From Streptomyces sp. NBC_00102 (lineage in GTDB: Bacteria; Actinomycetota; Actinomycetes; Streptomycetales; Streptomycetaceae), in contig NZ_JAPEMC010000001.1 in the NCBI RefSeq assembly GCF_026343115.1, forward strand, positions 4,669,501 to 4,733,500: a stretch of DNA of 64,000 bases. The letters are read 5' to 3'. Within the stretch, counting starts at the first letter, position 1; every line of letters begins with the position of its first letter. The position numbers and the translations under genes were made by a program. The notes beneath the pieces are model-generated. The model worked only from the letters and a program-made list of their open reading frames with translations, made no database searches and was not told the origin of the DNA. Positions 19,945-32,770 of the stretch are shown here, one piece after another.

Positions 19945-20928
19945 ATGACTGCCACCCCTGCCCGCCGTGTCCTGCTCGCCGCGCCCCGTGGCTACTGCGC
20001 GGGCGTGGACCGTGCCGTGATCGCCGTCGAGAAGGCCCTGGAGCAGTACGGGGCCCCGGTCTACGTGCGCCACGAGATCGTGCACAACAAGTACGTCGTG
20101 CAGACCCTGGAGAAGAAGGGGGCCATCTTCGTGGAGACCACCGCGGAGGTCCCCGAGGGATCCATCGTGATGTTCTCCGCGCACGGCGTCGCGCCGACCG
20201 TCCACGCCGAGGCCGCCGAGCGCCGGCTCGCCACGATCGACGCCACCTGCCCGCTCGTCACCAAGGTCCACAAGGAAGCCGTCCGCTTCGCCAGGGAGGA
20301 CTACGACATCCTCCTGATCGGCCACGAGGGCCACGAAGAGGTCATCGGCACCAGCGGCGAGGCCCCCGACCACATCACCCTGGTCGACGGCCCCGAGGAC
20401 GTCGCCAACGTCCAGGTCCGCGACGAGTCGAAGGTCGTCTGGCTCTCCCAGACCACGCTCTCGGTCGACGAGACCATGGAGACGGTCGACGCCCTGAAGA
20501 ACAAGTTCCCGAACCTGCTCTCCCCGCCCAGCGACGACATCTGCTACGCCACGCAGAACCGCCAGGTCGCGGTGAAGAAGCTGGCCGAGGACGCCGACCT
20601 GGTCATCGTCGTCGGCTCCAAGAACTCCTCCAACTCGATCCGCATGGTCGAGGTCGCCCTGGACGCCGGAGCCCCCGCCGCCCACCTGGTCGACTTCGCC
20701 TCCGAGATCGACGAGGCATGGCTGGAAGGCGTCACCACGGTAGGCCTCACCTCCGGCGCCTCCGTCCCCGACGTCCTCGTCGACGGCGTGCTGGAGTGGC
20801 TCGCCGAGCGCGGCTACGCGGACGTCGAGACCGTCAAGACGGCCGAGGAGTCGATCACCTTCTCGCTGCCCAAGGAGCTCCGCCGGGATCTGCGCGCCGA
20901 GGCCGCGGCCCTGACCGCCCAGCAGTAG
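19945..20928 (+). CDS. ispH: 4-hydroxy-3-methylbut-2-enyl diphosphate reductase
   Basis: Last enzyme of the MEP isoprenoid pathway, an iron-sulfur reductase producing IPP and DMAPP. The protein of about 327 residues has the three conserved cluster cysteines Cys18 ([13 protein letters not shown]), Cys102 ([11 protein letters not shown]) and Cys200 ([11 protein letters not shown]), matching E. coli spacing. The [10 protein letters not shown] substrate-binding segment is present. An ATG at 19936 (adding MGR) competes with the ATG at 19945; neither has a clear ribosome site. Confidence 0.96.
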
Positions 20929-20961
20929 CACCTGCCTGCCCCGCGGCGGCACCTGCTCAGC

Positions 20962-20994
20962 GGCAGCACCCGTCCAGAGGCAGCACCCGTCCAG
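20962..20994. repeat. short direct repeat downstream of ispH
   Basis: GGCAGCACCCGTCCAG occurs at 20962-20977 and 20979-20994, with degenerate copies on each side between about 20943 and 21010. No coding role seen. Confidence 0.6.
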
Positions 20995-21163
20995 CGGCGA
21001 CACCCGGACGCGGCCGGCCGGAGCGCGCAAGCGTTCCCGGCCGGTCGCGTTCCGCGTTCCGGGTGTGGCCGGCGGGGCCTTCTACGCGCATCCAACAGGA
21101 CCTTTTCGTACGTACCGTCCGCTCGGGACGTGCGAGGCGCCCGCTGCCCTTACCGTGGTGCCC

Positions 21164-21907
21164 ATGGAGATCTTCGGCGTTGACATCGGCGGTTCAGGGA
21201 TCAAGGGCGCTCCCGTGGACCTGGATCGTGGGGACTTGGCGCAGGAGCGCCACAAGGTGCTGACACCGCACCCGGCGGTACCCGACGGCGTGGCCGACTG
21301 CGTGGCCGAGGTCATCGGCCACTTCGGCTGGTCCGGGCCGGTCGGCATCACCTTCCCCGGTGTGGTCACCGACGGCGTCACGCGTACCGCCGCCAATGTC
21401 GACAAGGGCTGGATCGACCTGGACGCCCGCGCGCTCCTCTCCGAGCGGCTCGGCTGTCCCGTGACGATCCTCAACGACGCGGACGCGGCGGGCATCGCCG
21501 AGATGACCTTCGGTGCGGGCAAGGGCCGCAAGGGGACGGTCATCACGCTCACCTTCGGCACCGGCATCGGCTCCGCCGTCTTCACCGACGGGCAGCTCGT
21601 GCCCAACACCGAGCTGGGCCACCTGGAGCTCAACGGCCACGACGCGGAGAAGCACGCGTCGACCAAGGCCAAGGACGACAACGACCTGAGCTGGGAGCAC
21701 TGGGCCCACCGGGTGCAGAAGTACCTCGCCCACGTGGAGATGCTGTTCTCGCCCGAGCTCTTCATCATCGGCGGCGGGGTCAGCCGCAAGGCGGAGAAGT
21801 TCCTGCCGCTCATCAAGCACGTACGGGCGGAAATGGTCCCGGCCCAGTTGCAGAACAACGCCGGCATCGTCGGCGCGGCCATGGCGGCCCGCGCGGCGGG
21901 GAAGTAG
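21164..21907 (+). CDS. ppgK: polyphosphate glucokinase
   Basis: ROK-family enzyme of 247 residues that phosphorylates glucose with inorganic polyphosphate or ATP. Phosphate-binding motifs are [13 protein letters not shown] (about 6-18) and [22 protein letters not shown] supplies the sugar-binding Asp. The insertion [19 protein letters not shown] is characteristic of actinobacterial PPGK. ATG at 21164 starts the domain directly. The gene is monocistronic, between ispH and a convergent DUF6542 gene. Confidence 0.95.
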
Positions 21908-21926
21908 CCGGGCCCTTTTCCGCAAC

Positions 21927-21993
21927 GGGCACGGCCCGCCGACTCCGCCCGGGCCCCGCGCCCTACGCCTGAGGAGTGCGGCGGGCCGTGCCC
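21927..21993. terminator. long-loop inverted repeat downstream of ppgK
   Basis: Perfect 15-base arms (21927-21941 and 21979-21993) with a 37-base loop. The right arm lies inside the 3' coding end of the convergent DUF6542 gene, so the hairpin would span its stop codon. It may act as a terminator for ppgK. Confidence 0.5.
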
Positions 21994-22739
21994 TGCCCCA
22001 CGGCACCGCCGCGCACCCCGGAAGCGGGGCGCCCCTTCGCCGGACGGGGACGCTCGCCCCGGCCGGACCGGTCCTCCGGATGCCCCTCGGAGCCTGCGCC
22101 CCGTTCCCCGGCCGCGGGGGACGCGGCGGGGCGGAGCGCTCTCGCCGCGAGCAGCAGCTGACGCTGCCGCATCTGCCGGACCTTGCGCACGGTCGCGATG
22201 AGTCCGGCGACCAGGGTGCCCCCGTAGAGCCAGCCCGCGTGCACCGCGAGCGCGGTGACCACCGCCATCAGCTGCCCGCCGAACCCCCCGTCGCCCCCGG
22301 CCACCGGCAGGACCCCGACGGCGAAGGCGATCGGCACACTGATCGGCGCGGTCACCAGGTCGGCGGGCCGCACCCAGAGCGCGGTCAGCGCGCTGACGGG
22401 CACGAACAGCACCCCGTAGACGAGCGTGGACGCGTCGAACAGCAACCGGACCAGGCAGGCGAGTACGAACATCACGGCGGTGGCGAAGAGCCCCGCGCCG
22501 ATGCCGGTCAGCCGGGGGCTGGGGAATCTGCGCAGCGCCAGCACCACAGGAGGCAGGCTCCGCCGCGCGGCGGACGTGCCGACCACCCGGTAGACGGCCG
22601 AACTCTCGGCCGGAGGGGCGCCGCCGCCCTGGGGGACCGGGGCCGCCGGGGGCTCCTGGGGATGCCTGCGCTGCGGGGGACGAGTCCTGTGCTGCTCCAC
22701 CTGGACAACGTAGGTCGCGGAACCGGGTGAATCAGGCAT
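21963..22739 (-). CDS. DUF6542 membrane protein
   Basis: Protein of about 258 residues with a Pro/Arg-rich cytoplasmic N-terminus, then a DUF6542-type core holding about four hydrophobic segments (VVLALRRFPSPRLTGIGAGL through FATAVMFVLACLVRLLF, VYGVLFVPVSALTALWV, VPIAFAVGVLPVAG, LMAVVTALAVHAGWLYGGTL) and a basic low-complexity C-terminus. Function unknown. ATG at 22739 is the first plausible start; GTG at 22700 (EQHRTRPPQRR) is an alternative. It is divergent from ychF, as in S. coelicolor. Confidence 0.82.
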   Translation of the reverse strand: MPDSPGSATYVVQVEQHRTRPPQRRHPQEPPAAPVPQGGGAPPAESSAVYRVVGTSAARRSLPPVVLALRRFPSPRLTGIGAGLFATAVMFVLACLVRLLFDASTLVYGVLFVPVSALTALWVRPADLVTAPISVPIAFAVGVLPVAGGDGGFGGQLMAVVTALAVHAGWLYGGTLVAGLIATVRKVRQMRQRQLLLAARALRPAASPAAGERGAGSEGHPEDRSGRGERPRPAKGRPASGVRGGAVGQGTARRTPQA

Positions 22740-23049
22740 TGAACACGCGCTTTGGCCGAGCTTGGGACTGCGTTCGACGTCACACGGCCGAATGCCGACC
22801 CTGTTCGGCGGGAGCGGTGAGGGAGCGGTGCGGGAAGGGTGCGGGAGCGGTGAGGGGCGGGTGCGTGACCGGCGCGGGGAGGGACGCCACCCACTTCCGT
22901 ACGGGCCGCGCGCCCCTCCCGTACCGCTCGTTCCCGGCGCCGTGACGGCACGGTCGGCCCCGCCCGTAAACTGGAGAATCGGTCCACTGCCGGGCCCGGC
23001 CCGGCACGCTCCGCCCACCGCCCCGTCCACACTCCAGGAAGTCGCCAAC

Positions 23050-24138
<1,089 letters not shown>

Positions 24139-24228
24139 GCGGATGGAATAACACCACGTCGTTGACGTGGCAAACATGCAGGTCGGATGGCGTCCACCTC
24201 TCCGGAGGTGGGCTCCTGGCCTTTCCCC

Positions 24229-24248
24229 GTGCTGGATGGGTGCTGGAT
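24229..24248. repeat. paired GTGCTGGAT repeat, site 1
   Basis: GTGCTGGAT at 24229-24237 and 24240-24248, an 11-base-period direct repeat preceded by CCCC. It lies 91 bases after the ychF stop. An 18-base CCACCT/AGGTGG inverted repeat is just upstream at about 24194-24211. Confidence 0.8.
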
Positions 24249-24293
24249 CGGCTGAGGCACCATCAGTCGATTCCTCTCGCAGATGACACCAAG

Positions 24294-24317
24294 AGTGGTA
24301 CGTTATTGAGTACCACT
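24294..24317. promoter_or_regulatory. operator palindrome of yefM-yoeB
   Basis: Perfect 8-base arms AGTGGTAC (24294-24301) and GTACCACT (24310-24317) around an 8-base spacer, 19 bases before the yefM ATG. YefM-type antitoxins autoregulate through palindromes at their promoter, so this is the likely operator. Confidence 0.75.
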
Positions 24318-24336
24318 TGATGGGAGGGGTGAAGTC

Positions 24337-24618
24337 ATGTCCATCACTGCGAGTGAAGCGCGCAAGGAACTGTTTCCGTTGATCAAAAAGGTCAACGAGA
24401 ATCATGAGGCCATCGAAATCGTCTCCAAGCACGGTAACGCGGTGCTTGTCTCGGCCGAGGACTACATGGCACTGCGCGAGGGCTCCTACCTGCTGCGCTC
24501 GCCAGCGAACGCCCGGCGGTTGCTCAAGGCGTACGAGAACGCCCTGTCGCACATCAACGTGTCGGAGCGTGAGCTGATCGATCCCGAGTCACCGGACGCA
24601 GGTGCGGGTGCCGCGTGA
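24337..24618 (+). CDS. yefM: YefM/Phd-family antitoxin
   Basis: Antitoxin of 93 residues. The N-terminal Phd/YefM fold (MSITASEARKELFPLIKKV then IVSKHGNAVLVSAEDYMAL) dimerises and binds DNA; the C-terminal acidic tail neutralises the toxin. GGGAGGGG precedes the ATG. The stop overlaps the toxin GTG by 4 bases (GTGA), indicating translational coupling. A perfect operator palindrome lies upstream. It is in the repeat-bounded island, so it is probably acquired. Confidence 0.93.
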   Translation: MSITASEARKELFPLIKKVNENHEAIEIVSKHGNAVLVSAEDYMALREGSYLLRSPANARRLLKAYENALSHINVSERELIDPESPDAGAGAA

Positions 24619-24869
24619 GGCTCGTCTTCGAGGATCAGGGTTGGGAGGACTACACGTCCTGGCTCAGGAACGACCGTAAGATGCTCGCCCGGATCAACAA
24701 GCTCATCGAAGATGTCAGGCGTGACCCCTTCCTGGGCATCGGCAAGCCGGAGCCGCTGAAGTACCACCTGCCTGGGGCCTGGTCGCGACGGATCGACGAA
24801 GAGCACCGCCTCGTCTATCTGGTGACGGACAATGAGATCGTCATCCTCGCTGCCCGGTATCACTACTGA
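24615..24869 (+). CDS. yoeB: YoeB/Txe-family mRNA interferase toxin
   Basis: RelE-superfamily toxin of 84 residues, ribosome-dependent mRNA endonuclease. The pattern WEDYTSWLRNDRKMLARINK, PLKYHLPGAWSRRIDEEHRL and the C-terminal VILAARYHY matches YoeB, including the catalytic Glu, Arg and terminal His-Tyr. GTG start overlaps the antitoxin stop. Length and motifs look intact, so it is probably functional. Confidence 0.93.
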   Translation: MRLVFEDQGWEDYTSWLRNDRKMLARINKLIEDVRRDPFLGIGKPEPLKYHLPGAWSRRIDEEHRLVYLVTDNEIVILAARYHY

Positions 24870-24982
24870 TCGGTGAATGTCCGGTGTGCTGGGGCGATAT
24901 CCAGTGGCGCCGCCGGGCGGACCTTTGTTCGCAGGAACGAACTTCCCGCGTCACGAGGGATCTCCGTCAGTTGGGGGTGTAC

Positions 24983-25064
24983 CTACCGCTCGGAAGACCG
25001 TCCGGGGGACTCACTCACCGGCTACCAGGGTCTCCCTCAGGGTGCCCTCGATCGGGTGGCAGCG
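24983..25064 (-). pseudogene. remnant of a RelE/Phd toxin-antitoxin junction
   Basis: On the minus strand the sequence reads HPIEGTLRETLVAGE-stop (from about 25058 to 25011), which parallels IPIEDIMRETLARSE-stop at the end of the intact antitoxin in the next module. A GTG at 25018 follows with the same 8-base overlap, starts MSE like the intact toxin, keeps the CGGTCTTCCG stretch, then stops after 11 residues. This is the decayed junction of a related pair; the rest of both genes is missing. Confidence 0.7.
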
Positions 25065-25089
25065 GGCAGATTCCGTGTCGCGGTCGCGG

Positions 25090-25138
25090 GTGCTGGATGT
25101 GCTGGTTGACCTTGCACCGTGCTGGATCGGTGCTGGAT
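25090..25138. repeat. GTGCTGGAT repeats, site 2
   Basis: A degenerate pair (GTGCTGGAT 25090-25098, GTGCTGGTT 25099-25107) is followed by an intact pair (25119-25127 and 25130-25138). They lie 50 bases before the second ychF-end copy. Confidence 0.8.
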
Positions 25139-25187
25139 GCCACCTGCGGAAACCGCGTTTTCGCAGGTGGGAGCCCTGTACTACAGA

Positions 25188-25204
25188 TTCCGCTTCAACG
25201 TGTA
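25188..25204. repeat. ychF-end repeat, copy 2 (candidate att site)
   Basis: TTCCGCTTCAACGTGTA, matching the ychF end for 16 bases and differing at the last position of the stop codon. About 50 bases on its left side also resemble the sequence left of copy 3, but not the ychF coding sequence. Confidence 0.75.
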
Positions 25205-25257
25205 GTCGCGCGCTGTTGCCGCATGTGAGGCGTTGAGTCACACGTGCGCGTCGGAAG

Positions 25258-25287
25258 GGGTCGGGCTTTGTCGAGCCCGACCCTTTT
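25258..25287 (+). terminator. rho-independent terminator in the island
   Basis: Perfect 10-base stem (25258-25267 and 25274-25283), 6-base loop, then TTTT. Follows the second ychF-end copy. Confidence 0.8.
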
Positions 25288-25296
25288 GTCGTCCCC

Positions 25297-25316
25297 GTGC
25301 TGGATGGGTGCCGGAT
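25297..25316. repeat. paired GTGCTGGAT repeat, site 3
   Basis: GTGCTGGAT at 25297-25305 and GTGCCGGAT at 25308-25316, preceded by CCCC as in site 1 and 93 bases after the second ychF-end copy, the same spacing as site 1 has to copy 1. Confidence 0.8.
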
Positions 25317-25340
25317 GTTCTGACGCGCGGCCGCCGGTGG

Positions 25341-25604
25341 TCAGGTGTCGTGAACGGTGGACCGGTGCCCCACGTGAACGACCCAGACCACCAGTTCCCC
25401 GTTGTCGATCGTGTAGACGACGCGGTAATCGCCGACTCGTAGGCGGCGGCGATCCGGCTGGGACACGAGTGCGGTGGTGTTGAAGCCGAGTGGATCGCTT
25501 TCCAGCTCGGTCAGCTTGGCCAGGATGCGCAGTGCCGTCTCGCGCGGGAGCTTCCGAAGCTCGGCCTGCGCCTCGGGGCGGAAGACGGTTCGGTACTCAC
25601 TCAC
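25341..25604 (-). CDS. RelE/ParE-family toxin
   Basis: Toxin of 87 residues with the RelE fold pattern FRPEAQAELRKLPRETALRI, the core RRLRVGDYRVVYTIDNGEL and VWVVHVGHRSTVHDT at the end. Arg and His residues expected for RNA cleavage are present, so RelE rather than ParE activity is more likely. GTG at 25604 overlaps the antitoxin stop by 8 bases. Partner of the antitoxin upstream; both lie in module 2 of the ychF island, opposite in strand to yefM-yoeB. Confidence 0.92.
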   Translation of the reverse strand: MSEYRTVFRPEAQAELRKLPRETALRILAKLTELESDPLGFNTTALVSQPDRRRLRVGDYRVVYTIDNGELVVWVVHVGHRSTVHDT

Positions 25605-25866
25605 TGCGCGCCAGCGTCTCCCTCATGATGTCCTCGATCGGGATGCCGGGTGCGGGGTTGGCCATGCGCTCATCGATGATCCGATTGATCTCGCGCTCTT
25701 CCCATTCCTGGTACTTCCGCAGTACCTCGATGGAGACGACGGCGGCGACCTCCTTGCCGCGGCGTGTGATCACGGTGGGTACGTCGTCGCGGTCGGCGCG
25801 ATCCACGACCTCCGCCAGATGTGCGCGCACGTTGCGGATGGTCTCTATGGGCAGCGGCTGCGTCAT
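25597..25866 (-). CDS. Phd/YefM-family antitoxin
   Basis: Antitoxin of 89 residues: TIRNVRAHLAEVVDRADRDD, VPTVITRRGKEVAAVVSIEV form the Phd DNA-binding fold, and a long C-terminal helix (WEEREINRIIDERMANPAPG) binds the toxin. ATG at 25866 is taken as the start because it follows directly on a palindromic operator; an ATG at 25989 would cover that operator. The C-terminus is the intact counterpart of the remnant in module 1. Confidence 0.92.
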   Translation of the reverse strand: MTQPLPIETIRNVRAHLAEVVDRADRDDVPTVITRRGKEVAAVVSIEVLRKYQEWEEREINRIIDERMANPAPGIPIEDIMRETLARSE

Positions 25867-25876
25867 GCGCTCAAGT

Positions 25877-25908
25877 GTACCGAGTGTTCCATGTGTACAC
25901 ATCGGTAC
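25877..25908. promoter_or_regulatory. operator of the RelE/Phd pair
   Basis: Arms GTACCGA (25877-25883) and TCGGTAC (25902-25908) flank a perfect 12-base palindrome ATGTGTACACAT (25891-25902). It lies 11 bases upstream of the antitoxin start. Central TGTACA-type cores are known for YefM operators, so autoregulation is likely. Confidence 0.75.
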
Positions 25909-25958
25909 GGGGTGGCGGGTGGCGTCCTTCGGCTCGGCTCTCCGTGTGAACTCGCACC

Positions 25959-25978
25959 GTGCCGGATCAGTGCTGAAT
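25959..25978. repeat. paired GTGCTGGAT-like repeat, site 4
   Basis: GTGCCGGAT at 25959-25967 and GTGCTGAAT at 25970-25978, preceded by CGCACC as site 2b is by TGCACC. It lies 50 bases before the third ychF-end copy. Confidence 0.75.
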
Positions 25979-26027
25979 GTGGGCTTCAAAACCGACGTTT
26001 CCGCAGGTCGCAGCTGTGCGTTACAGG

Positions 26028-26045
26028 TTCCGCTTCACCGTGTGA
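26028..26045. repeat. ychF-end repeat, copy 3 (candidate att site)
   Basis: TTCCGCTTCACCGTGTGA, one mismatch to the ychF end. Right border of the island. Confidence 0.75.
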
Positions 26046-26100
26046 CGGACTGACGCCATGATCGGCCGAGGTGCTGGTCGGACAGTGGAGCCCCAGGTCA

Positions 26101-26130
26101 GGGGCCAGACCTTCAGGTCTGGCCCCTTCT
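26101..26130 (+). terminator. rho-independent terminator, probably ancestral ychF terminator
   Basis: Perfect 11-base stem (26101-26111 and 26116-26126), 4-base loop, followed by TTCTT. Positioned just beyond the right border of the island, where the original ychF terminator would lie if the island were removed (inference). Confidence 0.8.
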
Positions 26131-26252
26131 TGATCTCTCTGGCTGGATCAGGCTGCTTTCTGGCCCTGCGCTGACGTGGTACCGACCCTCGGCGCAGGTC
26201 TGTACGTGCGTTGAGCCGACGGTCGCCGCCGGGGCTCCCACCGACCGGGGCC

Positions 26253-27467
26253 TCAGTGGGCGGCCCGCGTGGGGATCGGCTCGTCGGTGTCCACGTCGTC
26301 GAGCGGGCCCGGGGTGAACATCGGGTCGAACTCGCAGTCCTCGTCGTCGGGGACGTACGGGAGGAAGCCGTCACGGGCCGTGCGGGCTGCGGTGGTGAGG
26401 AGGCGGGCGAGGACCTGCTGTTCGGTGGTCGGGGGAAGGATGAGGGCGGCCAGGAGGCGGTCGCGGAGCTCGGGGTGGTCCGGGTGGTCGGCGAGGTGGT
26501 CGGCGCCGAGGGCCGGTGGGCGGAAACCGGCCAGGGCGTCGTGCCAGGAGGGCAGGACGATGGCGAGCGTCAGTGCCTCGGCGAGGGATTCGGCGATCAG
26601 CGAGGCCCGGCCCTCGGAGTCGGTGTAGAGAACGGGGCGCGGGGCGCCCGGGACGGCCGGGCCGCAGAGGTAGTGGGTACCGCCGGCGTTGCAGCCGGCC
26701 ACGGGCTCGACGGGGAGGCCGTTGGGCAGGGCGATCGGCTCGTGAGGGTCGGTGCGTTCCAGGTCGAACTCGCCGTGTCCGGCCAGGTAGGAGGCGGCTT
26801 CGGGATGTGCGGCGATCCTGCGCAGGAGCGCCTCGTCCGTGAGGGCGGCCGGGTTGAGGGCCGTGACGACGGCGGCGGTGAGGGGGTGTCCGGCGAGGAC
26901 GTGGCGGACGGCGTCCAGCGGTACGGGGCGCTCGTAGTAGTCCTCGAAGTACGCCTGGACGGCCTCGGGGGTGCGGTCGGTGAGGAGACGGAAGAGGTAC
27001 GCGGATCCGTCGGGGTCCTCGACGCCCGGCGGGAAGTCGACGGCCGAGCCGGAGTGCCACGCGGTGTCGCCGTTCGTCCACCACAGGCAGGTGGTGACGC
27101 GGGGGACGTCGATGCCCTCGTCGAAGAAGGCGGGTTCGTCCAGGAGCGGGCTCAACGCGGCGGGCACCTCGTCGATGACGCCGGGCCAGACCTCCTCGTC
27201 CTCCGTGGCGTACGGGCTCATCCTCGACTCGTGGTCGAAGCCGCGTATGAGCGTGCCGGCCGGGGTGAAGAGGACGGAGAAGTCGTCCCCCGAGCCGTTG
27301 TCCATCAGCGCCGCCTCCTCCTTCGGGCCCCAATGGGCGTTGAAGGTGTAGCAGCTGAAGCGCGGATCGTCGCCGATGGTCGCGTCCAGAACGGCCAGCG
27401 CCCGCAGGTGCGCGCGGAGTTGGGCGGGGTCGGGAAGGCGGGCTGCGGTCTCGCGGACGGTGCTCAT
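26253..27467 (-). CDS. hypothetical protein
   Basis: Protein of 404 residues of unrecognised family. It is acidic, rich in Trp and aromatic residues in the first half (CYTFNAHWGPKEEAALMDNG, TTCLWWTNGDTAWHSGSAVD), with helical middle and no signal peptide or membrane segment. The pattern resembles uncharacterised actinobacterial proteins found beside immunity/SMI1-type genes, but no assignment is made. ATG at 27467 fits. Codon use is like the host core. It is followed on its left by the ychF island and on its right by a small ORF on the same strand. Confidence 0.75.
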   Translation of the reverse strand: MSTVRETAARLPDPAQLRAHLRALAVLDATIGDDPRFSCYTFNAHWGPKEEAALMDNGSGDDFSVLFTPAGTLIRGFDHESRMSPYATEDEEVWPGVIDEVPAALSPLLDEPAFFDEGIDVPRVTTCLWWTNGDTAWHSGSAVDFPPGVEDPDGSAYLFRLLTDRTPEAVQAYFEDYYERPVPLDAVRHVLAGHPLTAAVVTALNPAALTDEALLRRIAAHPEAASYLAGHGEFDLERTDPHEPIALPNGLPVEPVAGCNAGGTHYLCGPAVPGAPRPVLYTDSEGRASLIAESLAEALTLAIVLPSWHDALAGFRPPALGADHLADHPDHPELRDRLLAALILPPTTEQQVLARLLTTAARTARDGFLPYVPDDEDCEFDPMFTPGPLDDVDTDEPIPTRAAH

Positions 27468-27534
27468 GGAGTCATGGAAGCATCCGCCACTGACAACACC
27501 GGTGCCACCGGCATCACCGACACCGCCGGCGTCC

Positions 27535-27831
27535 TCAGCCGACGATCTGGCTGAACAGCGGATAGATCTTCGGCCTGGCGTCGGGCACGCCGAGCTCGCG
27601 CAGGATCGGCAGGATGGTTTCGCCGAACTGGTCGAACTCCTCCTGGGACTCCCAGACGTCGACCACGAGCCAGCCGTTGTCGGTGGGGGCGGCGGTGTGG
27701 GAGAGGAGGCCGGTCACCGGCCAGTCGGAGGGGCTGGTCACGGGGCCGGACCGGCCGGACATCCGCTCCAGGCTCTTCTCGTAGTGCGCCTGGGTCATTC
27801 CCGGGAGGTCGAAGACCACGACGATCGGCAT
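27535..27831 (-). CDS. small dimeric alpha/beta-barrel-like protein
   Basis: Protein of 98 residues beginning MPIVVVFDLPGMTQAHYEKS and containing GWLVVDVWESQEEFDQFGET. This alternating strand/helix pattern is seen in antibiotic biosynthesis monooxygenase-like (ABM) and related ferredoxin-fold proteins. No catalytic assignment can be made. ATG at 27831 with AGGGG upstream. It lies between the PP2C gene and the 404-residue hypothetical gene, all on the minus strand. Confidence 0.75.
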   Translation of the reverse strand: MPIVVVFDLPGMTQAHYEKSLERMSGRSGPVTSPSDWPVTGLLSHTAAPTDNGWLVVDVWESQEEFDQFGETILPILRELGVPDARPKIYPLFSQIVG

Positions 27832-27930
27832 GGTGAGCCCCTTCTGCGAGCGCGGTACGAAAGTCCGGTCCAGTCGACCACCCCGGAGATCCGTACGCGT
27901 GGGGGCCTGGGCCGAACGGGGCCCGACGTC

Positions 27931-29205
27931 TCAGGTGCGGGGCGGCGCGCCGGCGTCGGGGGCAGGTACGCCCAGGGCGAGCAGGGCGGTGTCGTCGGAG
28001 ACGCCCTCGCCGAGGCTGTCCAGCAGATCCGTCAGAGCGGCGACGAGGGCGGGGGCGGGGTCGCCGGCCCGGCTCCGGGCGAAATCGCGGAGTGCCTCCT
28101 CCCCGTAGAGAGCGGACCTGTCGCGGCCGGTACGAGCCTCGGTGAGGCCGTCGGTGTACAGCAGGAGGGTGTCGCCGGGGGCGAGCCGGGTGTCGGCGGT
28201 GACGAAGTCCGCGGTGGGCAGGACACCCACCAGGAGGCCGCCGGGGGTGGGCAGGTAGTCGGCGCGGCCGTCGGCGCGCAGGACCAGCGCCGGCGGGTGA
28301 CCGCCCGACGCGAGGTGGACGTCGACCTCGCCGGCTGCGGGGCCGGGTTCGAGTACGCCGAAGACGGCGGTGCAGTAGCGGGGGTCCGGGCCGCCGGAGT
28401 AGCGCTCGTACAGCACCGTGTTGAGCGTGGAGAGCGCCGATACGGGATCGGGGTCGTGCAGGGCCGCGGCGCGCAGGGTGTGGCGGGTCAGCGCGGTGAC
28501 GGCGGCGGCCTGGGGGCCCTTGCCGCACACGTCGCCGAGGAAGAAGGCGAAGCGGGTGGCGTCGACGGGGAAGACGTCGTAGAAGTCGCCGCCGAGCCGG
28601 TCGGGGGAGGCGGTGTGGTAGTGCGCGGCGGCCTCCATGCCGGGGACCGGGGGCAGGGTGTCGGGCAGCAGCGCCTGCTGCAGTACGGCGAGGGCGTCCT
28701 GCAGCCGGGTGCGGTCGGCCTGGGCGCGCCGGGTGGCTTCCTCGGCGGCTCGGCGTGCCCGCAGGAGTTCTTCCTCGTAGCCGCGGCGGTCGCGGGCGTC
28801 GAAGACGGTGATGCGGATCAGCAGCGGGTCGCCGGAGGCGTCGTGCTTGACCACGGCCGAGACGAGCACCGGCATCCGGCCTCCGCCGGGCTGCCTGATG
28901 TCGAGGGCTATGCCGCTGATCCGGCCCCGCATGCGCAGCAGCGGGGCGAAGTGCGTCTCGTGGTACAGCCTGCCACCGACGGTCAGCAGGTCGACGAAGC
29001 GCATCCGGCCCACCACCGCCTCCCGCGCGAGGCCGGCCCAGTCCAGCAGCGTGGTGTTGATTTTCGCGACCGTGCCGTCCATCAGCGTGGACAGGTAGCC
29101 GCACGGGGCGCTCTCGTACAGTTCCTCGGCGCTGGGCTCCAGGAGAGCCGCGAACGCGTCGGCGCCGCGGGACGGGTCCGGTTCCGGCCCCGCTCGGTCC
29201 GTCAT
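27931..29205 (-). CDS. PAS-PP2C phosphatase (RsbP-like)
   Basis: Protein of 424 residues: N-terminal PAS domain (about 20-140, ESAPCGYLSTLMDGTVAKIN, VVGRMRFVDLL), a helical linker (EEELLRARRAAEEATRRAQA) and a SpoIIE/PP2C domain (LGGDFYDVF, FFLGDVCGKG, GVSDDTALLAL). Order and length parallel B. subtilis RsbP, which dephosphorylates the anti-anti-sigma factor RsbV under energy stress. Its ATG overlaps the stop of the RsbQ-like gene by 4 bases (ATGA), as expected for a coupled RsbQ-RsbP pair. No HATPase domain is attached, unlike the other two PP2C proteins here. Confidence 0.92.
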   Translation of the reverse strand: MTDRAGPEPDPSRGADAFAALLEPSAEELYESAPCGYLSTLMDGTVAKINTTLLDWAGLAREAVVGRMRFVDLLTVGGRLYHETHFAPLLRMRGRISGIALDIRQPGGGRMPVLVSAVVKHDASGDPLLIRITVFDARDRRGYEEELLRARRAAEEATRRAQADRTRLQDALAVLQQALLPDTLPPVPGMEAAAHYHTASPDRLGGDFYDVFPVDATRFAFFLGDVCGKGPQAAAVTALTRHTLRAAALHDPDPVSALSTLNTVLYERYSGGPDPRYCTAVFGVLEPGPAAGEVDVHLASGGHPPALVLRADGRADYLPTPGGLLVGVLPTADFVTADTRLAPGDTLLLYTDGLTEARTGRDRSALYGEEALRDFARSRAGDPAPALVAALTDLLDSLGEGVSDDTALLALGVPAPDAGAPPRT

Positions 29206-30005
29206 CCCAGGCCGGCCAGGAACTCGGTGATCGCGGCGTTGGTGGCGTCGGGCGCCGACAGCTGGGGGCAGTGGCCGGTCGCGTCGAGGGTGACCAGGAC
29301 CGAACCGGGAACGGCGCGGTGGACGTACGCGCCGACCTCCGGCGGGGCGATCATGTCCTGGGCGCATTCCAGGACCAGCGTCGGCACCGTCACGCCCGCC
29401 AGGTCGGCGCGGCTGTCGGACAGGAAGGTGGTGCGGGCGAAGACGCGCGCCATGTCCGGGTCGGTCGCGCAGAAGCTGTCGGTCAGTTCCTGGCCCAGAG
29501 AGGGCCGGTCCGGATTGCCCATGATCAGCGGTGCCATCGTGGCGGACCAGCCCAGATAGTTCAGCTCCAGCGAGGTCAGCAGTTCGTCGATGTCCTCGGC
29601 GCTGAAGCCGCCCCGGTAGCCGTCCTCGTCGATGTAGCGGGGCGAGGGGGTGACCATCACCAGCGCGCCGATCCGGTCGGGTGCCTCCCGCGCCGCCAGG
29701 ACCCCGACCATGGCGCTGACCGAGTGCCCCACGAACACCGCCCGCTCCAGATCCAGCTCCTCGCAGACCTCCACCACGTCCTGGGCGTACCCTCGCATGG
29801 ACGAGTAGCGCTCCTCACTCCACTCCGAGAGGTCGGAGCCGCCCGACCCGACGTAGTCGAAGAGCACCACCCGGTAGTTCTCGGCCAGAGCGGGCACGGT
29901 CAGGCGCCACATGTTCTGGTCGCACCCGAAACCGTGCGCCAGCACCACCACGCGCCCCCGCGGGTTGCCGGTGACGGTGACGTTGTTCCTGCGCCGGATG
30001 TCCAT
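29202..30005 (-). CDS. alpha/beta hydrolase, RsbQ-like
   Basis: Hydrolase of about 267 residues. The oxyanion region is LAHGFGCDQNMWR, the nucleophile elbow GHSVSAMVG, and the late Asp and His are in LECAQDMIAPP and DATGHCPQL. This pattern matches RsbQ (269 residues in B. subtilis), which is needed to activate RsbP, probably by supplying a small hydrophobic ligand. ATG at 30005 is chosen because GGGAGG is 9 bases upstream; the ATG at 30014 touches that ribosome site. Overlap with the PAS-PP2C gene makes the functional link strong. Confidence 0.93.
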   Translation of the reverse strand: MDIRRRNNVTVTGNPRGRVVVLAHGFGCDQNMWRLTVPALAENYRVVLFDYVGSGGSDLSEWSEERYSSMRGYAQDVVEVCEELDLERAVFVGHSVSAMVGVLAAREAPDRIGALVMVTPSPRYIDEDGYRGGFSAEDIDELLTSLELNYLGWSATMAPLIMGNPDRPSLGQELTDSFCATDPDMARVFARTTFLSDSRADLAGVTVPTLVLECAQDMIAPPEVGAYVHRAVPGSVLVTLDATGHCPQLSAPDATNAAITEFLAGLG

Positions 30006-30091
30006 GTCGGCCATCCTCCCAGCACCGGCGGCAGGCTTCGACCCGTGGAGCGCACACGTTCCGGTGGCCCCGGCAGCCCCGGGTGCCGCTC

Positions 30092-32770
30092 CTACCGCAC
30101 CCCCAGCTCCGCGATCCCCGCCGGCCGTGCCGGGTCCGCCGAGACCACCGTCACCCGGACCTCCCGGGCCGGCGCGCCCGGTACGAACGGGTGCCAGGAG
30201 CGGCCGTCGGCCGAGGTCTCCACGGTGTGGGCGGCGGGCGGTACGGCGCTCCAGACCGGTTCCACCGAGGTGATCCGCAGTGTCCGGTCCAGCCGGACCG
30301 TCAGGGTGCCGGTGGCCCCGTCCGGGGACCAGGCGGTGGCGGGGGAGCCGTCCACCGCCGCCTCGGCGTAGAGCCCGGGCGCCTCGGAGTCGGCCGAGGC
30401 CGGGCGGCAGCGGGCCACGTCGCCGGTGGGAGCGGGACCAGTGCGGAGGGTGGGAGCGGGACCAGGGCGGAGGGTGGGAATGAGATCGGGGCGGCGGGTC
30501 GGCAGCACCAGGGTGCTGGTCAGACGCCGGGGCCCGGCCGGGGTGTCGACGGTGAACGGCGCGCCCGACACCAGCCGCACCGTGGTGGTGGCGGGCCCGA
30601 GCGCGATGTCGTAGGTACGTCCCCGGTACCGCAGTCCCTTCAGGGTGACGCCCGCGCGCAGCTGGGGCGGCAGCACGGGGTCGAGCCGGATTCCGTCCTC
30701 GCGGAGCCGCAGCCCGGTCAGGCCGTGGGTGAAGACCTGGAGGAATCCGCCCTTGCCGGTGAGGAAGTCCTCGGCGGGGAAGCCCGACAGCGGGTCCTCG
30801 GCGCCCGCCTTCGCGCCGCGTGCCTCGGAGAAGAGCCCGAACGGGCCGCGCATGAACGGCCGTACGGAACGCTGGAGGTAGGTGTACGCGGCGCACCCCG
30901 GCTCCCCGATGGCGGCGGCGTCGATCGCGTGCACCGAGTCCGTCATGGCCGGGCCGTCCGGATCGGTGCGGGCGGCGTAGAAGTTGAGGGTCGCGGCTGC
31001 GGCACCGGGCTCCATGGGCCACTCCAGCGGGTACGTCAGCAGCACGGTGTCCGCCTGCTTGATGGTCGAGCCGTCGTACCCCGCGTACTGGAGGTAGATC
31101 CGGCGCTCCGGGTCGTACGGGATGCGCAACCCGTCCGCCACCCGCTGCCAGGCGGCGGGGGCCGGGCGGCCGAGGAGCGCCGCGGCGCGTACGGCCTCGC
31201 GCAGGGCGGTCGCCGCGACCGCGTTGGTGAAGACCCCGTCGGTGACGCCGTTGCTGTACTCGTCGGGACCTGCGACGTTCACGACCGACCAGCTGCCGTC
31301 CGCGTTCGGGGTGGCCCGGGAGGCCCAGAAGTCGGCGATCCCGGAGAGCAGCGGCCAGCCGCGCTCCGCCAGCCACGTGCGGTCGCCGGTGGCCAGCCAG
31401 TACTGCCACACGGCGAGCGCCACATCGCCCTGGAGGTGGTTCTGGGTGAGGCAGTGCGGCGGGTCCCAGCTCTGGCACTCGGAGTCCAGCCGGCCCTGGC
31501 TCGCGCTGGTCCACGGGTAGAACAGCCCGTCGTACCCGAGTTTCTCCGCGTTGGCGCGGGCCGCGTCCCGGGTGCGGTAGCGGTACTCCACGACCGTGCG
31601 GGCGAGCTCGGGGCGGGTGGCCAGCAGCCCCGGGTACATCCAGGTCTCGGCGTCCCAGAACACCATGCCCGCGTAGTTGTCGCTGGTGGCACCGGCCGGC
31701 GCGATGCTGTCCGAGGCGCCGGGACGGGTGGCGGACAGCAGCCCGTACTGGGCCGCCCGCAGCCACCGCTGGAGGTCCGGGCTGCCCGGCACCAGCACGT
31801 CGGAGGACCAGTCCCGGCGCCAGGCGCCCGCGCTGTCGGCCAGCACCCGCGCCCAGCCGCGTCCGGCGGCCCGCCGGGAGGCCGCGCGCGCCGAGGCGAG
31901 CGGGGCGCGGGAGGTGAGGGCGGTGTCGACGCCGACGTACTTCTCGACGGTGTACGCCCGTCCCGCACGCACCCGCAGCTCGCGGGTGAGCGCCGGGCCC
32001 GGCCGCATGGTCTGGACGACCGCCCCGTCGACCCCGGTGCCGTGCGTGCGGAAGGTCCCGTCGTCCGCCACCGTCATCCGGCGCGCGCCGCGCGCGTCGA
32101 GCCGTCCGGTGACCGCCGCCGTGCCGGTCCACCGGGGCGTCAGCGTCAGCCGTACGGCCCCGGCGTGGACGTCCGAGCGATCCGTCAGCACCTCGTACAC
32201 CAGGTCGGTCGCCCTGCCGTCCGCCGAGGTCCACCGCAGCGAGGTGCGGACGAGGCCGCAGGCGAGGAAGAGGGTCTGGCGGTAGCGCGAGACCCGGCCG
32301 GGCGGAGTGTCCGCGCCGAAGGTCTCACCGCCGACGCGGACGTCGAGCGGGGTCCAGCTCGGCAGCGCCGCGAGCACCTCGCGCCCCTCGGTGGTGCCGG
32401 GCTCGGCCCCGTACAGGCCGGTGACGAACGCCCCGTCGTAGCGCGGGGTGTAGAGCGGCCAGCCGGTCTTCTCCGGGCGGACCGCGTACCCGGCCCCGGC
32501 CGGCGGGACGCGGTGGCCGAGGTAACCGTTGCCGACGTACGGGTCGTACCCCTCGGCCCCGCCGAAGCGGTCCGAGATCAGCTCCCACGGACCGTCGGAA
32601 CGCGCACCCGCAGCGGGATCCGGAGTCCGTGACGCCGAGCAGGAGGGCGGGGCCGGGGAAGCGCCGGGGGTGTGGGCGGACGCCTGGCCCGGCATTACGA
32701 TCATGGTCAGCAGGGCGGTGGTCAGGCAGCCGGCGAGGGGGGTGCGCGCATGTCTCACCCGGACGAACAT
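30092..32770 (-). CDS. secreted GH65-family glycoside hydrolase/phosphorylase with C-terminal binding domain
   Basis: Protein of about 892 residues with a signal peptide (cleavage near QASA-HTPG). An N-terminal beta domain, an (alpha/alpha)6 barrel and the GH65 general-acid motif GPDEYSNGVTDG (Glu504) are seen, with YAGMVFWDAETWMYPGLLA and IKQADTVLLTYPLEW typical of the trehalose/maltose group. About the last 130 residues resemble a discoidin (F5/8-type) carbohydrate-binding domain. Secretion favours hydrolysis, such as acid trehalase, over phosphorolysis. ATG at 32770 starts a basic signal sequence; GTG at 32758 is an alternative. Confidence 0.9.
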   Translation of the reverse strand: MFVRVRHARTPLAGCLTTALLTMIVMPGQASAHTPGASPAPPSCSASRTPDPAAGARSDGPWELISDRFGGAEGYDPYVGNGYLGHRVPPAGAGYAVRPEKTGWPLYTPRYDGAFVTGLYGAEPGTTEGREVLAALPSWTPLDVRVGGETFGADTPPGRVSRYRQTLFLACGLVRTSLRWTSADGRATDLVYEVLTDRSDVHAGAVRLTLTPRWTGTAAVTGRLDARGARRMTVADDGTFRTHGTGVDGAVVQTMRPGPALTRELRVRAGRAYTVEKYVGVDTALTSRAPLASARAASRRAAGRGWARVLADSAGAWRRDWSSDVLVPGSPDLQRWLRAAQYGLLSATRPGASDSIAPAGATSDNYAGMVFWDAETWMYPGLLATRPELARTVVEYRYRTRDAARANAEKLGYDGLFYPWTSASQGRLDSECQSWDPPHCLTQNHLQGDVALAVWQYWLATGDRTWLAERGWPLLSGIADFWASRATPNADGSWSVVNVAGPDEYSNGVTDGVFTNAVAATALREAVRAAALLGRPAPAAWQRVADGLRIPYDPERRIYLQYAGYDGSTIKQADTVLLTYPLEWPMEPGAAAATLNFYAARTDPDGPAMTDSVHAIDAAAIGEPGCAAYTYLQRSVRPFMRGPFGLFSEARGAKAGAEDPLSGFPAEDFLTGKGGFLQVFTHGLTGLRLREDGIRLDPVLPPQLRAGVTLKGLRYRGRTYDIALGPATTTVRLVSGAPFTVDTPAGPRRLTSTLVLPTRRPDLIPTLRPGPAPTLRTGPAPTGDVARCRPASADSEAPGLYAEAAVDGSPATAWSPDGATGTLTVRLDRTLRITSVEPVWSAVPPAAHTVETSADGRSWHPFVPGAPAREVRVTVVSADPARPAGIAELGVR

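Follow-up and report, generated by a model that had tools for sequence, protein, structure and literature searches.

Tandem toxin-antitoxin modules at the ychF 3' end of Streptomyces, a probable target site of a phage-type tyrosine integrase

Within the 64,000-nucleotide stretch of Streptomyces sp. NBC_00102 analysed here (the window), two small toxin-antitoxin modules lie in tandem behind ychF, each closed by a copy of the end of that gene. We read this locus, with a probability of roughly 86%, as a series of small elements integrated in tandem at the ychF 3' end, a site-specific target of a phage-type tyrosine integrase. The modules themselves, judged from their sequence, would be attL/attR-framed mini-elements without an integrase, resembling both CIMEs and pdif modules. 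Across related genomes such ends recur with a common geometry and a single orientation, are linked to integrase genes and have their borders at the core, and collinear cassettes without an integrase occur in many species, having spread horizontally. With the recombination sites of a phage family of the same insertion spot still around them, the modules have the appearance of minimal mobile cassettes dependent on a borrowed phage integrase.

The locus thereby describes, with its integrase family and its anatomy, an insertion hot spot in a large antibiotic-producing genus, at which toxin-antitoxin pairs spread as very small att-framed units; no earlier report of an attachment site at the ychF end was found in the open-licence literature. 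Were the cassettes moved in trans, elements of very small size would be living off a phage integrase, and through them the reason for the high mobility of toxin-antitoxin systems could be approached directly. New site-specific integration tools for Streptomyces may also be drawn from the conserved core, the arm pairs and the integrases.

Anatomy of the array

The initial annotation had noted that the last 18 bases of ychF recur at 25188 and 26028, that repeat pairs lie about 90 bases after copies 1 and 2 and about 50 bases before copies 2 and 3, and that each interval carries a toxin-antitoxin locus and no integrase. These descriptions are borne out by the features collected in Table 1. At up to two mismatches the core has three matches in the window, against a mean of 0.00 in 100 shuffles; given their mismatches, copies 2 and 3 are not exact. 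Four GTGCTGGAT pairs are present where 0.01 were expected (none of 100 shuffles had four), the fourth being worn, as its three mismatches indicate. The gap from core to left arm is 90 bp at core 1 (24138 to 24229) and 91 bp at core 2 (25205 to 25297), and that from right arm to core is 49 bp before both core 2 (25138 to 25188) and core 3 (25978 to 26028). Both right ends share a 97-nt repeat, 74% alike (25107-25203 and 25947-26043). Every border of the two modules is hence a core plus an arm pair at recurrent distances, such that attL and attR are retained in the manner of a CIME, the right arm of element 2 with its three mismatches included.

Table 1. Features of the ychF locus in the window; attachment-site roles are putative
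Feature	Position	Strand	Details
ychF, target gene	23050..24138	+	TIGR00092 YchF equivalog, 441.6 bits (cut-off 279.2)
Core copy 1, attL core	24121..24138	+	TTCCGCTTCAACGTGTGA; last 18 bp of ychF, encodes FRFNV-stop of YchF
Left arm-type pair, element 1	24229..24248	+	GTGCTGGATGGGTGCTGGAT, 0 mismatches; core at offset -108 from arm, a recurrent offset
YefM antitoxin (PhdYeFM), element 1	24337..24618	+	PF02604 4.2e-13; TIGR01552 37.2 bits (cut-off 20.8)
YoeB toxin, element 1	24615..24869	+	PF06769 8.3e-41; TIGR02116 127 bits (cut-off 51.8)
Stretch like ParE/Phd-cassette DNA of relatives	24946..25056	.	72-81% alike (blastn matches); direct repeat D3
Right arm-type pair, element 1	25119..25138	+	0 mismatches; 69 bp (start to start) before core 2
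Core copy 2, junction of elements 1 and 2	25188..25205	+	2 mismatches; arm-core-arm, attP-like
Terminator-like hairpin between core 2 and left arm of element 2	25255..25286	+	inverted repeat I10
Left arm-type pair, element 2	25297..25316	+	1 mismatch
ParE/RelE-superfamily toxin, element 2	25341..25604	-	PF05016 2.3e-14
Phd-family antitoxin, element 2	25597..25866	-	PF02604 6.3e-13; TIGR01552 41.4 bits (cut-off 20.8)
Right arm-type pair, element 2	25959..25978	+	worn, 3 mismatches of 20
Core copy 3, right border of element 2	26028..26045	+	1 mismatch
Probable decayed left end of a third element	26046..26192	+	hairpin 26100-26127, worn C-type arm; 74% over 169 bp to G072 (L116)
d404, 404-aa gene of no recognised family	26253..27467	-	part of ychF-end elements in relatives

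The cargo is YefM/YoeB in the first interval and of ParE/Phd type in the second, as assigned by Pfam and NCBIfam. The YefM of element 1 stays below the cut-off of NF008499 (58.9 bits against 121), and the toxin of element 2 falls just short of that of TIGR02385 (27.4 against 27.9). Both genes of each module match toxin-antitoxin families only, so that, as in a CIME, integration and transfer genes are lacking inside; a tblastn search at E<=1e-2 with the integrase of ychF-end elements (described below) found no similar stretch in either module, and PADLOC gave no defence match for either. The stretch behind YoeB, where the direct repeat D3 pairs 25006-25067 with 25592-25653 at 76%, is probably the remnant of a lost ParE/Phd copy. 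A perfect stem of at least 7 bp, such as that of the hairpin at the left end of element 2, is found in 54 of 110 distinct left ends and in 17 of 550 shuffles that preserve base composition only. Scanning the region for promoters and terminators yielded none of the former and one terminator-like site with 0.9 expected, and is not informative.

To the right of the array, the initial annotation had anticipated empty sites in which a terminator at 26101 follows ychF directly. This arrangement is matched, among the matches listed, in G072 alone, at 74% over 165-169 bp; the stretch itself looks like the left end of a decayed third element, and the DNA directly after ychF in G072 (locus L116) carries GTGCTGACTTCGTGCTGACT. 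The adjoining d404, with no match in Pfam or NCBIfam, is found together with ParE/Phd between one pair of attachment ends at L084/L181, L087, L172, L200, L215 and L068, from 40 end pairs counted for such gene content without de-duplication.

Recurrence in relatives and linkage to phage-type integrases

Within a sample of 199 genomes of the genus, ychF is present in 197 and the arm pattern in 41, the reversed control being found in none. In 34 of these 41 (a tally made by eye, as was the union count of 62 of 199 genomes), ychF and the nearest copy of the pattern share a contig, with the copy 0.1-30 kb downstream of the gene; in two (G064 and G166) the pattern is on the contig of ychF but far from it, in three (G002, G085 and G097) it is on another, and in two (G123 and G156) ychF was not placed. 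A second sample of 27 other genomes of the same genus held the exact pattern in none. The core was sought at up to four mismatches within 400 bp of exact arm pairs, of which there were 93 in the 80 loci listed (L125-L204, out of at least 120 stretches); it stood at -106 to -109 for 42 and at +58, +68 or +69 for 32; for four it was elsewhere, three of them being second arm copies, and for 15 there was none, five of these in unrelated bacteria. Besides these loci, the analyses took in L205-L224. Some loci are the same DNA fetched twice, and counts called distinct were de-duplicated by sequence. It is worth noting that two of 20 relatives chosen by ychF likeness rather than by arms (G114 and G179) hold a close Phd near ychF with no recognisable arm of GTGCTGGAT type beside it; since the arm pattern served to retrieve most of the other loci, the sample favours intact arms.

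Orientation and borders are equally regular. Where a locus includes the ychF 3' end as well, its attachment ends lie on the ychF strand, in 141 of 141 cases (not de-duplicated), and 29 distinct arm-core-arm junctions like core 2 occur across the collected loci. In at least five loci, the DNA behind the YefM/YoeB cassette aligns from the first base of the core, at 88-90%, with DNA that directly follows ychF; relatives lacking one of the modules, as the initial annotation had called for, do exist, with their borders at the core. Element families with GTGCTGGAT, GTGCTGGGA and GTGCTGACT arms differ in arm sequence, sharing the core and nearly the same spacing.

The same annotation had named an integrase gene beside the same repeats elsewhere as further support, and such genes were found in relatives. 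Among 66 distinct right ends of the A family, 23 have a phage-type tyrosine integrase immediately on their inner side, near full length in 12 and partial by tblastn in 11 (some of them partial because the locus is cut); 30 of the 66 have ParE/Phd inside. A PF00589 protein adjoins the right arm of two elements of about 54 kb in G191, one of which encodes ten proteins matching structural or excisionase families, and S. albospinus has a 54-kb prophage at the ychF end. From a protein search alone, with the repeats unused, relatives of the integrase were located 1.5-54 kb downstream of ychF and on its strand in 11 of 13 genomes, the integrase of the remaining two not being placed relative to ychF. 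The integrase stretches beside A-type arms are about 42-100% identical and the one beside a C-like arm 67%; none of the nine distinct family-B right ends has a relative of the enzyme within 3 kb. The best-scoring match in the strain's own genome is 28% identical, leaving it with no close integrase, and among INPHARED phages identity is 30% for the top-ranked match and below 60% throughout the 381 matching records. The ends thus show what defines a tyrosine-integrase attachment site with arm-type sites, namely repeats flanking the core on the side of the element and an integrase gene next to one end, the arm-type role of the repeats being putative.

Six viral contigs carry the arm pattern, with the core at the right distance only in the IMG/VR contigs L120 and L124, where an integrase right end, near the contig's end, is followed directly by ParE/Phd; the first 6 kb of each showed no ychF, core or arm. 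The cassette is in tandem with an element of matching integrase in both contigs and, with another element between, at L202; in L124, the ParE/Phd unit behind the prophage has a worn left arm.

Stacked site-specific integration, as first suggested, is strongly supported by the recurrent geometry, the uniform orientation, the borders at the core and the integrase beside the repeats. Mobilisation in trans by an unknown recombinase stands in part: the kind of recombinase is identifiable as a phage-type tyrosine integrase, to whose arm-type sites the repeats fit, and movement in trans is one option beside mobilisation in cis with a neighbouring prophage or the past decay of larger elements.

Minimal cassettes and how they might spread

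In the mechanism we propose, the ychF end (FRFNV-stop) would serve as core and the GTGCTGGAT pairs as arm-type sites of a cognate enzyme, the phage-type tyrosine integrase of Streptomycetaceae elements, prophages included, that use the same core; full elements would keep its gene just inside the right arm pair. Each window element appears to retain both its ends, the left one consisting of core, hairpin and arm pair and the right one of arm pair, spacer and core, with one toxin-antitoxin pair as its only recognisable genes. Integration would preserve the last codons and stop of ychF, add element DNA behind them and remake the core for the next insertion, and it is through this remaking that elements would stack. 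We infer that a ychF phage, whether co-resident or incoming, may supply the integrase that moves the cassettes, in trans (alone) or in cis (with the prophage), and that the toxin-antitoxin cargo may stabilise the array.

Sixteen distinct ParE/Phd cassettes of about 0.84 kb, all without an integrase, are collinear from core to core. Their arms are 92-94% identical, as conserved as the genes, against 59-70% for the spacers, which together with the common layout gives them the look of one mini-element lineage rather than of separate deletions. In an AU test the cassette tree rejects that of ychF (p 1.7e-48), a conflict of which homologous recombination between arrays could be another source, and YefM/YoeB reaches 98% between genomes whose ychF is 85-88% alike, in pairs not de-duplicated except for identical ones. 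The plasmid collection gave no match to the ParE/Phd cassette, and in phage records both modules together match only 84 bp of toxin gene, in two Gordonia phages. Tentatively, and at somewhat under even odds, the minimal cassettes may constitute a mobile class of their own: satellites of about 0.84 kb in which a complete attachment site is divided by one addiction pair, mobilised in trans by ychF-phage integrases and stacked at the end of one housekeeping gene, in families that differ in their arms and share the core.

Rather more doubtful is that the modules are dead remnants, left when a larger ychF prophage or island lost its integrase and most of its cargo, and kept, immobile, by toxin-antitoxin selection. 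The partial integrases at 11 of the 23 integrase-bearing A-family right ends (some of them cut loci), the probable ParE/Phd fragment within element 1, the want of a close integrase in the strain's own genome and the pair without recognisable arms in G114 and G179 would all agree with decay, which the CIME definition, as worded in a passage of PMC5704250, itself presumes. Such an origin is at odds, however, with the single layout and conserved arms of the 16 cassettes, with a cassette tree that rejects that of ychF, and with the larger elements themselves, since neither of the two G191 elements (tblastn, E<=1e-3, in all stretches fetched) nor the end stretches of the G157 element match either toxin-antitoxin pair.

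Spread by homologous recombination in ychF and between arrays, with the attachment sites a mere matter of history, we consider improbable. The common ends and flanks of arrays would permit exchange, and shared blocks can stop inside a cassette, as between the window and L204; the YefM/YoeB block common to the window and S. sulfonofaciens stops inside the cassette and not at a core. Yet the overall likeness of the window's ychF is 85.3% to that of S. sulfonofaciens and 86.8% to that of S. seoulensis, falling to 67-75% in troughs, and values of 94-100% are not reached until about 150 bp past the end of ychF; moreover, every counted end points the same way and the borders fall at the core. Integron cassettes, insertion sequences or XerCD dif modules are a very remote prospect: small cassettes with repeats do recall attC and pdif modules, but the ychF-linked enzyme is a phage-type integrase (phrog_1, 1.3e-47) that scores far under the curated cut-offs for XerC (51 bits against 335), XerD (51.5 against 330) and the integron integrase (TIGR02249, 47.6 against 265), the last speaking against an integron gene cassette. 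Tandem duplication of a chromosomal segment, or chance, is rejected, since for all the 74% likeness of the two right ends the cargoes differ and lie on opposite strands, shuffle expectations for core copies and arm pairs are near zero, and the same cassettes occur singly and in other orders in other genomes.

Relation to known systems

An integrated array of this kind has several counterparts. Firstly, CIMEs of streptococci and of Streptomyces scabiei TR1 similarly keep attL and attR and have lost integration and transfer genes, and passages in PMC5704250 and PMC8369830 describe their accretion in tandem with an integrase-bearing element at one site. Here, by contrast, the only partner whose genes were examined one by one is a prophage instead of an ICE, the small element met most often is a conserved 0.84-kb toxin-antitoxin cassette of many species and not one decayed island, and the site is ychF where the S. 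scabiei CIME uses aviX1. Bearing on an origin by ICE or IME decay are the partial integrases at other right ends, the prophage nature of that partner and the single collinear set of minimal cassettes. Secondly, pdif modules of Acinetobacter plasmids, as outlined in part of PMC6449649, include sub-kilobase toxin-antitoxin modules between recombination sites, such as the 768-bp 'add dif' module, with several modules per replicon and near-identical copies in different species; those use host XerCD and dif-like sites on plasmids, whereas a phage-type tyrosine integrase, arm-type sites and one chromosomal gene end are concerned here.

Temperate siphoviruses and other integrase-bearing elements at the Streptomyces ychF 3' end share the core, the arm offsets and the orientation, and are likely the source of the enzyme for the modules; they reach about 54 kb and carry an integrase, whereas the modules have neither integrase nor recognisable phage genes. 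Actinomycete ICEs (AICEs) also integrate site-specifically by tyrosine integrases in actinomycetes; those with tyrosine recombinases are mostly found in tRNA 3' ends, according to a passage of PMC3218068. The window has no tRNA gene at 20000-32000, by which a tRNA-type attachment site is rejected, and neither module holds a stretch like the ychF-element integrase, so that AICE membership is rejected as well. A pneumococcal prophage between dnaN and ychF, whose 14-bp site is placed on the ychF promoter side in part of PMC6375853, adjoins the same gene, but at the opposite end from the 3' site used in Streptomyces.

Modules behind ychF

The initial annotation held that the 3' end of ychF recurs twice downstream, that paired repeats accompany the copies, and that each interval carries a toxin-antitoxin locus within one common layout, all of which was borne out. 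The last 18 bp of ychF (the core) gave 0 copies over 100 shuffles of the window, and the repeat pair GTGCTGGATNGGTGCTGGAT (the arm pair, read as an integrase arm-type site) occurs four times at ≤3 mismatches where 0.01 are expected, the fourth pair being worn. The order core, 90–91 bp, pair, cargo, pair, 49 bp, core is present twice, the cargo being YefM/YoeB and then a ParE/RelE-superfamily toxin with a Phd antitoxin (ParE/Phd). Between the two, the order pair-core-pair is that expected for an attP site or a tandem junction. A probable remnant of a ParE/Phd pair within the YefM/YoeB element hints that neighbouring elements fused or were internally deleted.

DNA behind the third core is 74% like that after ychF in a relative (G072) where a C-type arm is present, A, B and C types being element families that differ in arm sequence and have the core in common. 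The next gene after this core, d404, matched nothing in Pfam or NCBIfam and is cargo of elements in other genomes; the array probably once held at least three elements. Across several species, d404 accompanies ParE/Phd in ychF-end elements. Further right lies what is probably the genuine chromosomal flank on the right of the insertion site, a stretch that six relatives also have at differing distances downstream of ychF.

Features at the ychF end (window coordinates)
Feature	Position	Strand	Remarks
ychF	23050-24138		TIGR00092
ychF-end copies	25188, 26028		2 mismatches; 1 mismatch
GTGCTGGATNGGTGCTGGAT pairs	24229, 25119, 25297, 25959		
YefM/YoeB		+	first module
ParE/RelE-superfamily toxin with Phd antitoxin		-	second module
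Probable ParE/Phd remnant	24946-25056		
Pair-core-pair	25107-25326		
CGTTTNCGCAGGT	25156-25168, 25996-26008		
d404	26253-27467		404 aa
Probable right flank	30098-31976		

Attachment ends and a linked integrase

The division of these repeats into arm and core is taken from lambda-type tyrosine integrases, which we take to apply here. A scan of named genomes for the arm pattern gave at least 120 stretches, of which the 80 listed are Streptomyces nearly throughout, plus Kitasatospora, Streptacidiphilus, Actinacidiphila and five unrelated bacteria. These 80 loci hold 93 exact arm pairs, around which a core (≤4 mismatches, within 400 bp) lay at -106 to -109 in 42, at +58, +68 or +69 in 32, and at other offsets in four (-172 twice, -183, -88), those at -172 and -183 being further copies of the left arm. 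The remaining 15 had no core, among them those of the five unrelated bacteria and some at cut loci. Wherever a locus included the ychF 3' end, its attachment ends lay on the ychF strand (141 of 141), and the core encodes FRFNV-stop in 78/81 left-end, 27/29 junction and 33/50 right-end distinct copies. A hairpin whose stem is perfect over ≥7 bp stands between core and left arm in 54/110 distinct left ends (17/550 composition-keeping shuffles), and insertion can therefore supply ychF with a new terminator. Two left-end haplotypes occur (e.g. L077, L144); TGA-stop cores are mostly paired with GCGGATGAAATAACACCACGTC, and TAG-stop cores differ in the first 45 bp, often with the arm offset shifted by 1 bp.

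An integrase beside the same repeats, which the initial annotation had named as support, was found in S. albospinus (G191), where two elements, each of ~54 kb, have a 419-aa PF00589 protein immediately within their right arm pair. One of these elements adjoins ychF and, judged by its gene content, is a siphovirus-type prophage: all ten proteins compared with PHROGs matched, nine to structural families (tape measure, major head, portal, large terminase, head protease, minor tail, distal tail, head-tail adaptor and tail terminator) and one to an excisionase. Neither element matched either toxin-antitoxin pair. Going inward from each of 66 distinct A-family right ends, the first tested gene was the integrase in 23 (12 near full length, 11 partial), ParE/Phd in 30, YoeB in three and only ychF in one; in nine, the first 3 kb contained no tested gene. 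A protein search independent of the repeats found close integrases (E≤1e-100) in 13/199 genomes; in 11 of the 13 the integrase is encoded on the ychF strand, 1.5–54 kb downstream of that gene, and for the integrase-bearing G043 and G121, ychF was not among the matches listed. In the ychF element of G157 the left arm is of C type, the right arm precedes the core by 69 bp, and the integrase lies immediately inside.

Integrase-less cassettes and their probable movement

Collected loci gave 40 left-right pairs, of which 31 were distinct and <3 kb; none of these 31 contained the integrase, and their cargo was ParE/Phd (17), d404 with ParE/Phd (5), YefM/YoeB (4) or other (5). Core-to-core alignment was possible for 16 distinct ParE/Phd cassettes (repeat unit 819–857 bp), with mean pairwise identities of 94 and 92% for arm pairs, 91% for genes, 89 and 85% for cores and 59–70% for spacers; right-arm identity was 93% in 11 cassettes picked by exact left arm. 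Within the right spacer CGTTTNCGCAGGT is conserved in most of the 16, while the remaining spacer is not, and it is perhaps an additional, putative protein-binding site. Elements with other arms carry, by Pfam, VapB/PIN (L041), another PIN gene (L107) and Uma2 (L202), so the ychF end gathers both toxin-antitoxin and nuclease genes. L101 and L161 hold the same kind of small element by likeness to L107.

States lacking one of the modules occur at the ychF ends of relatives, which the initial annotation had proposed comparing, with borders that fall at the core. Window DNA behind the YefM/YoeB cassette matches, at 88–90% and from core base 1, the DNA directly after ychF in L144, L210, L135, L218 and L168 (among the matches listed), and there the matched DNA is the start of a ParE/Phd unit. 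G065, with no arm pair in the 12 kb after ychF, represents an empty-like state. A 7.5-kb interval in G057 has a B-type left and an A-type right end, and is perhaps more than one element for that reason; to its right, 418 bp are 96% identical to DNA directly after ychF in G052, with divergence past ~0.5 kb. Among 20 relatives picked by ychF likeness, a close Phd occurs only in G114 (YchF 98% identical), where ParE/Phd lies directly behind ychF, and G179, where the pair is further downstream, neither with a recognisable arm.

ParE/Phd identity hardly follows ychF identity (r 0.27, 775 pairs) and that of YefM/YoeB does not (r -0.08, 34 pairs). For 35 taxa the ychF tree was rejected by the ParE/Phd alignment (delta lnL 837, AU p 1.7e-48), and the ParE/Phd tree was likewise rejected by the ychF alignment. 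Between the window and S. sulfonofaciens, ychF is 85.3% identical and the DNA ~150 to 750 bp behind it 94–100%; this common block stops inside the cassette, so internal rearrangement also occurs.

The stacked site-specific integration originally proposed is strongly supported by these observations: on this reading, the attachment ends that frame the modules belong to a ychF-specific phage-type integrase family, and serial integration at the ychF end stacked the modules. Being integrase-less, framed by attachment ends and stacked, the window modules are CIME-like by anatomy, resembling cis-mobilizable elements as described in PMC5704250 and PMC8369830; the nearest functional likeness is to pdif modules, the XerCD-type toxin-antitoxin modules of Acinetobacter plasmids (PMC6449649). 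Further comparison was drawn from PMC3218068 (actinomycete ICEs) and PMC6375853 (a pneumococcal prophage near ychF). The literature searched, which excludes most subscription papers, yielded no mention of a Streptomyces ychF attachment site.

Prophages at ychF most likely helped the modules move, in trans or in cis. Integrase right ends precede ParE/Phd ends in three loci: in IMG/VR contig L124 the next thing after it is a ParE/Phd unit that has a right end of its own and a worn left arm; in IMG/VR contig L120 it is directly followed by a ParE/Phd left end, which continues to where the contig stops; and in L202 a Uma2 element comes first and a right end of ParE/Phd after that. As the last arm is worn and the own genome has no close integrase (of its four distant matches, the best-scoring is 28% identical), the window copies may now be fixed in place.

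Distribution and further copies

The GTGCTGGATNGGTGCTGGAT pattern (≤1 mismatch) occurs in 41/199 genus genomes (reversed control, 0 matches). In 34 of these the copy closest to ychF shares its contig and lies 0.1–30 kb downstream; in the other seven it is far off on the ychF contig (2), on a different contig (3), or ychF is unplaced (2). Arm pairs of a second family, GTGCTGGGANNGTGCTGGGA at 0 mismatches, are present in 29/199 (control 0); the two families together account for 62/199, a tally made by eye. Among 120 further genomes sampled at family level, GTGCTGGATNGGTGCTGGAT (0 mismatches) was found in 4/93 from other genera and 0/27 from the same genus.

The 8.6-Mb own assembly holds 10 copies of GTGCTGGATNGGTGCTGGAT (≤3 mismatches), four of them in the window. 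Four more, with 2–3 mismatches, have no core (≤3 mismatches) inside their 3-kb loci, and two adjoining copies lie at position ~288 kb of the same contig, C1 (L011:4038-5310, -). There, a ychF-end near-copy (1 mismatch over 18 bp), which includes more of ychF than the window copies, precedes two left arm pairs and then a gene with a match to PADLOC PDC-S18; a right end was not found. Upstream of this near-copy, inspection by eye suggests a CRISPR array and a transposase of IS-like type. A possible secondary attachment site in G166 is L071:9951-10140, where a right end accompanied by an integrase fragment lies on the contig of ychF, at a great distance from that gene.
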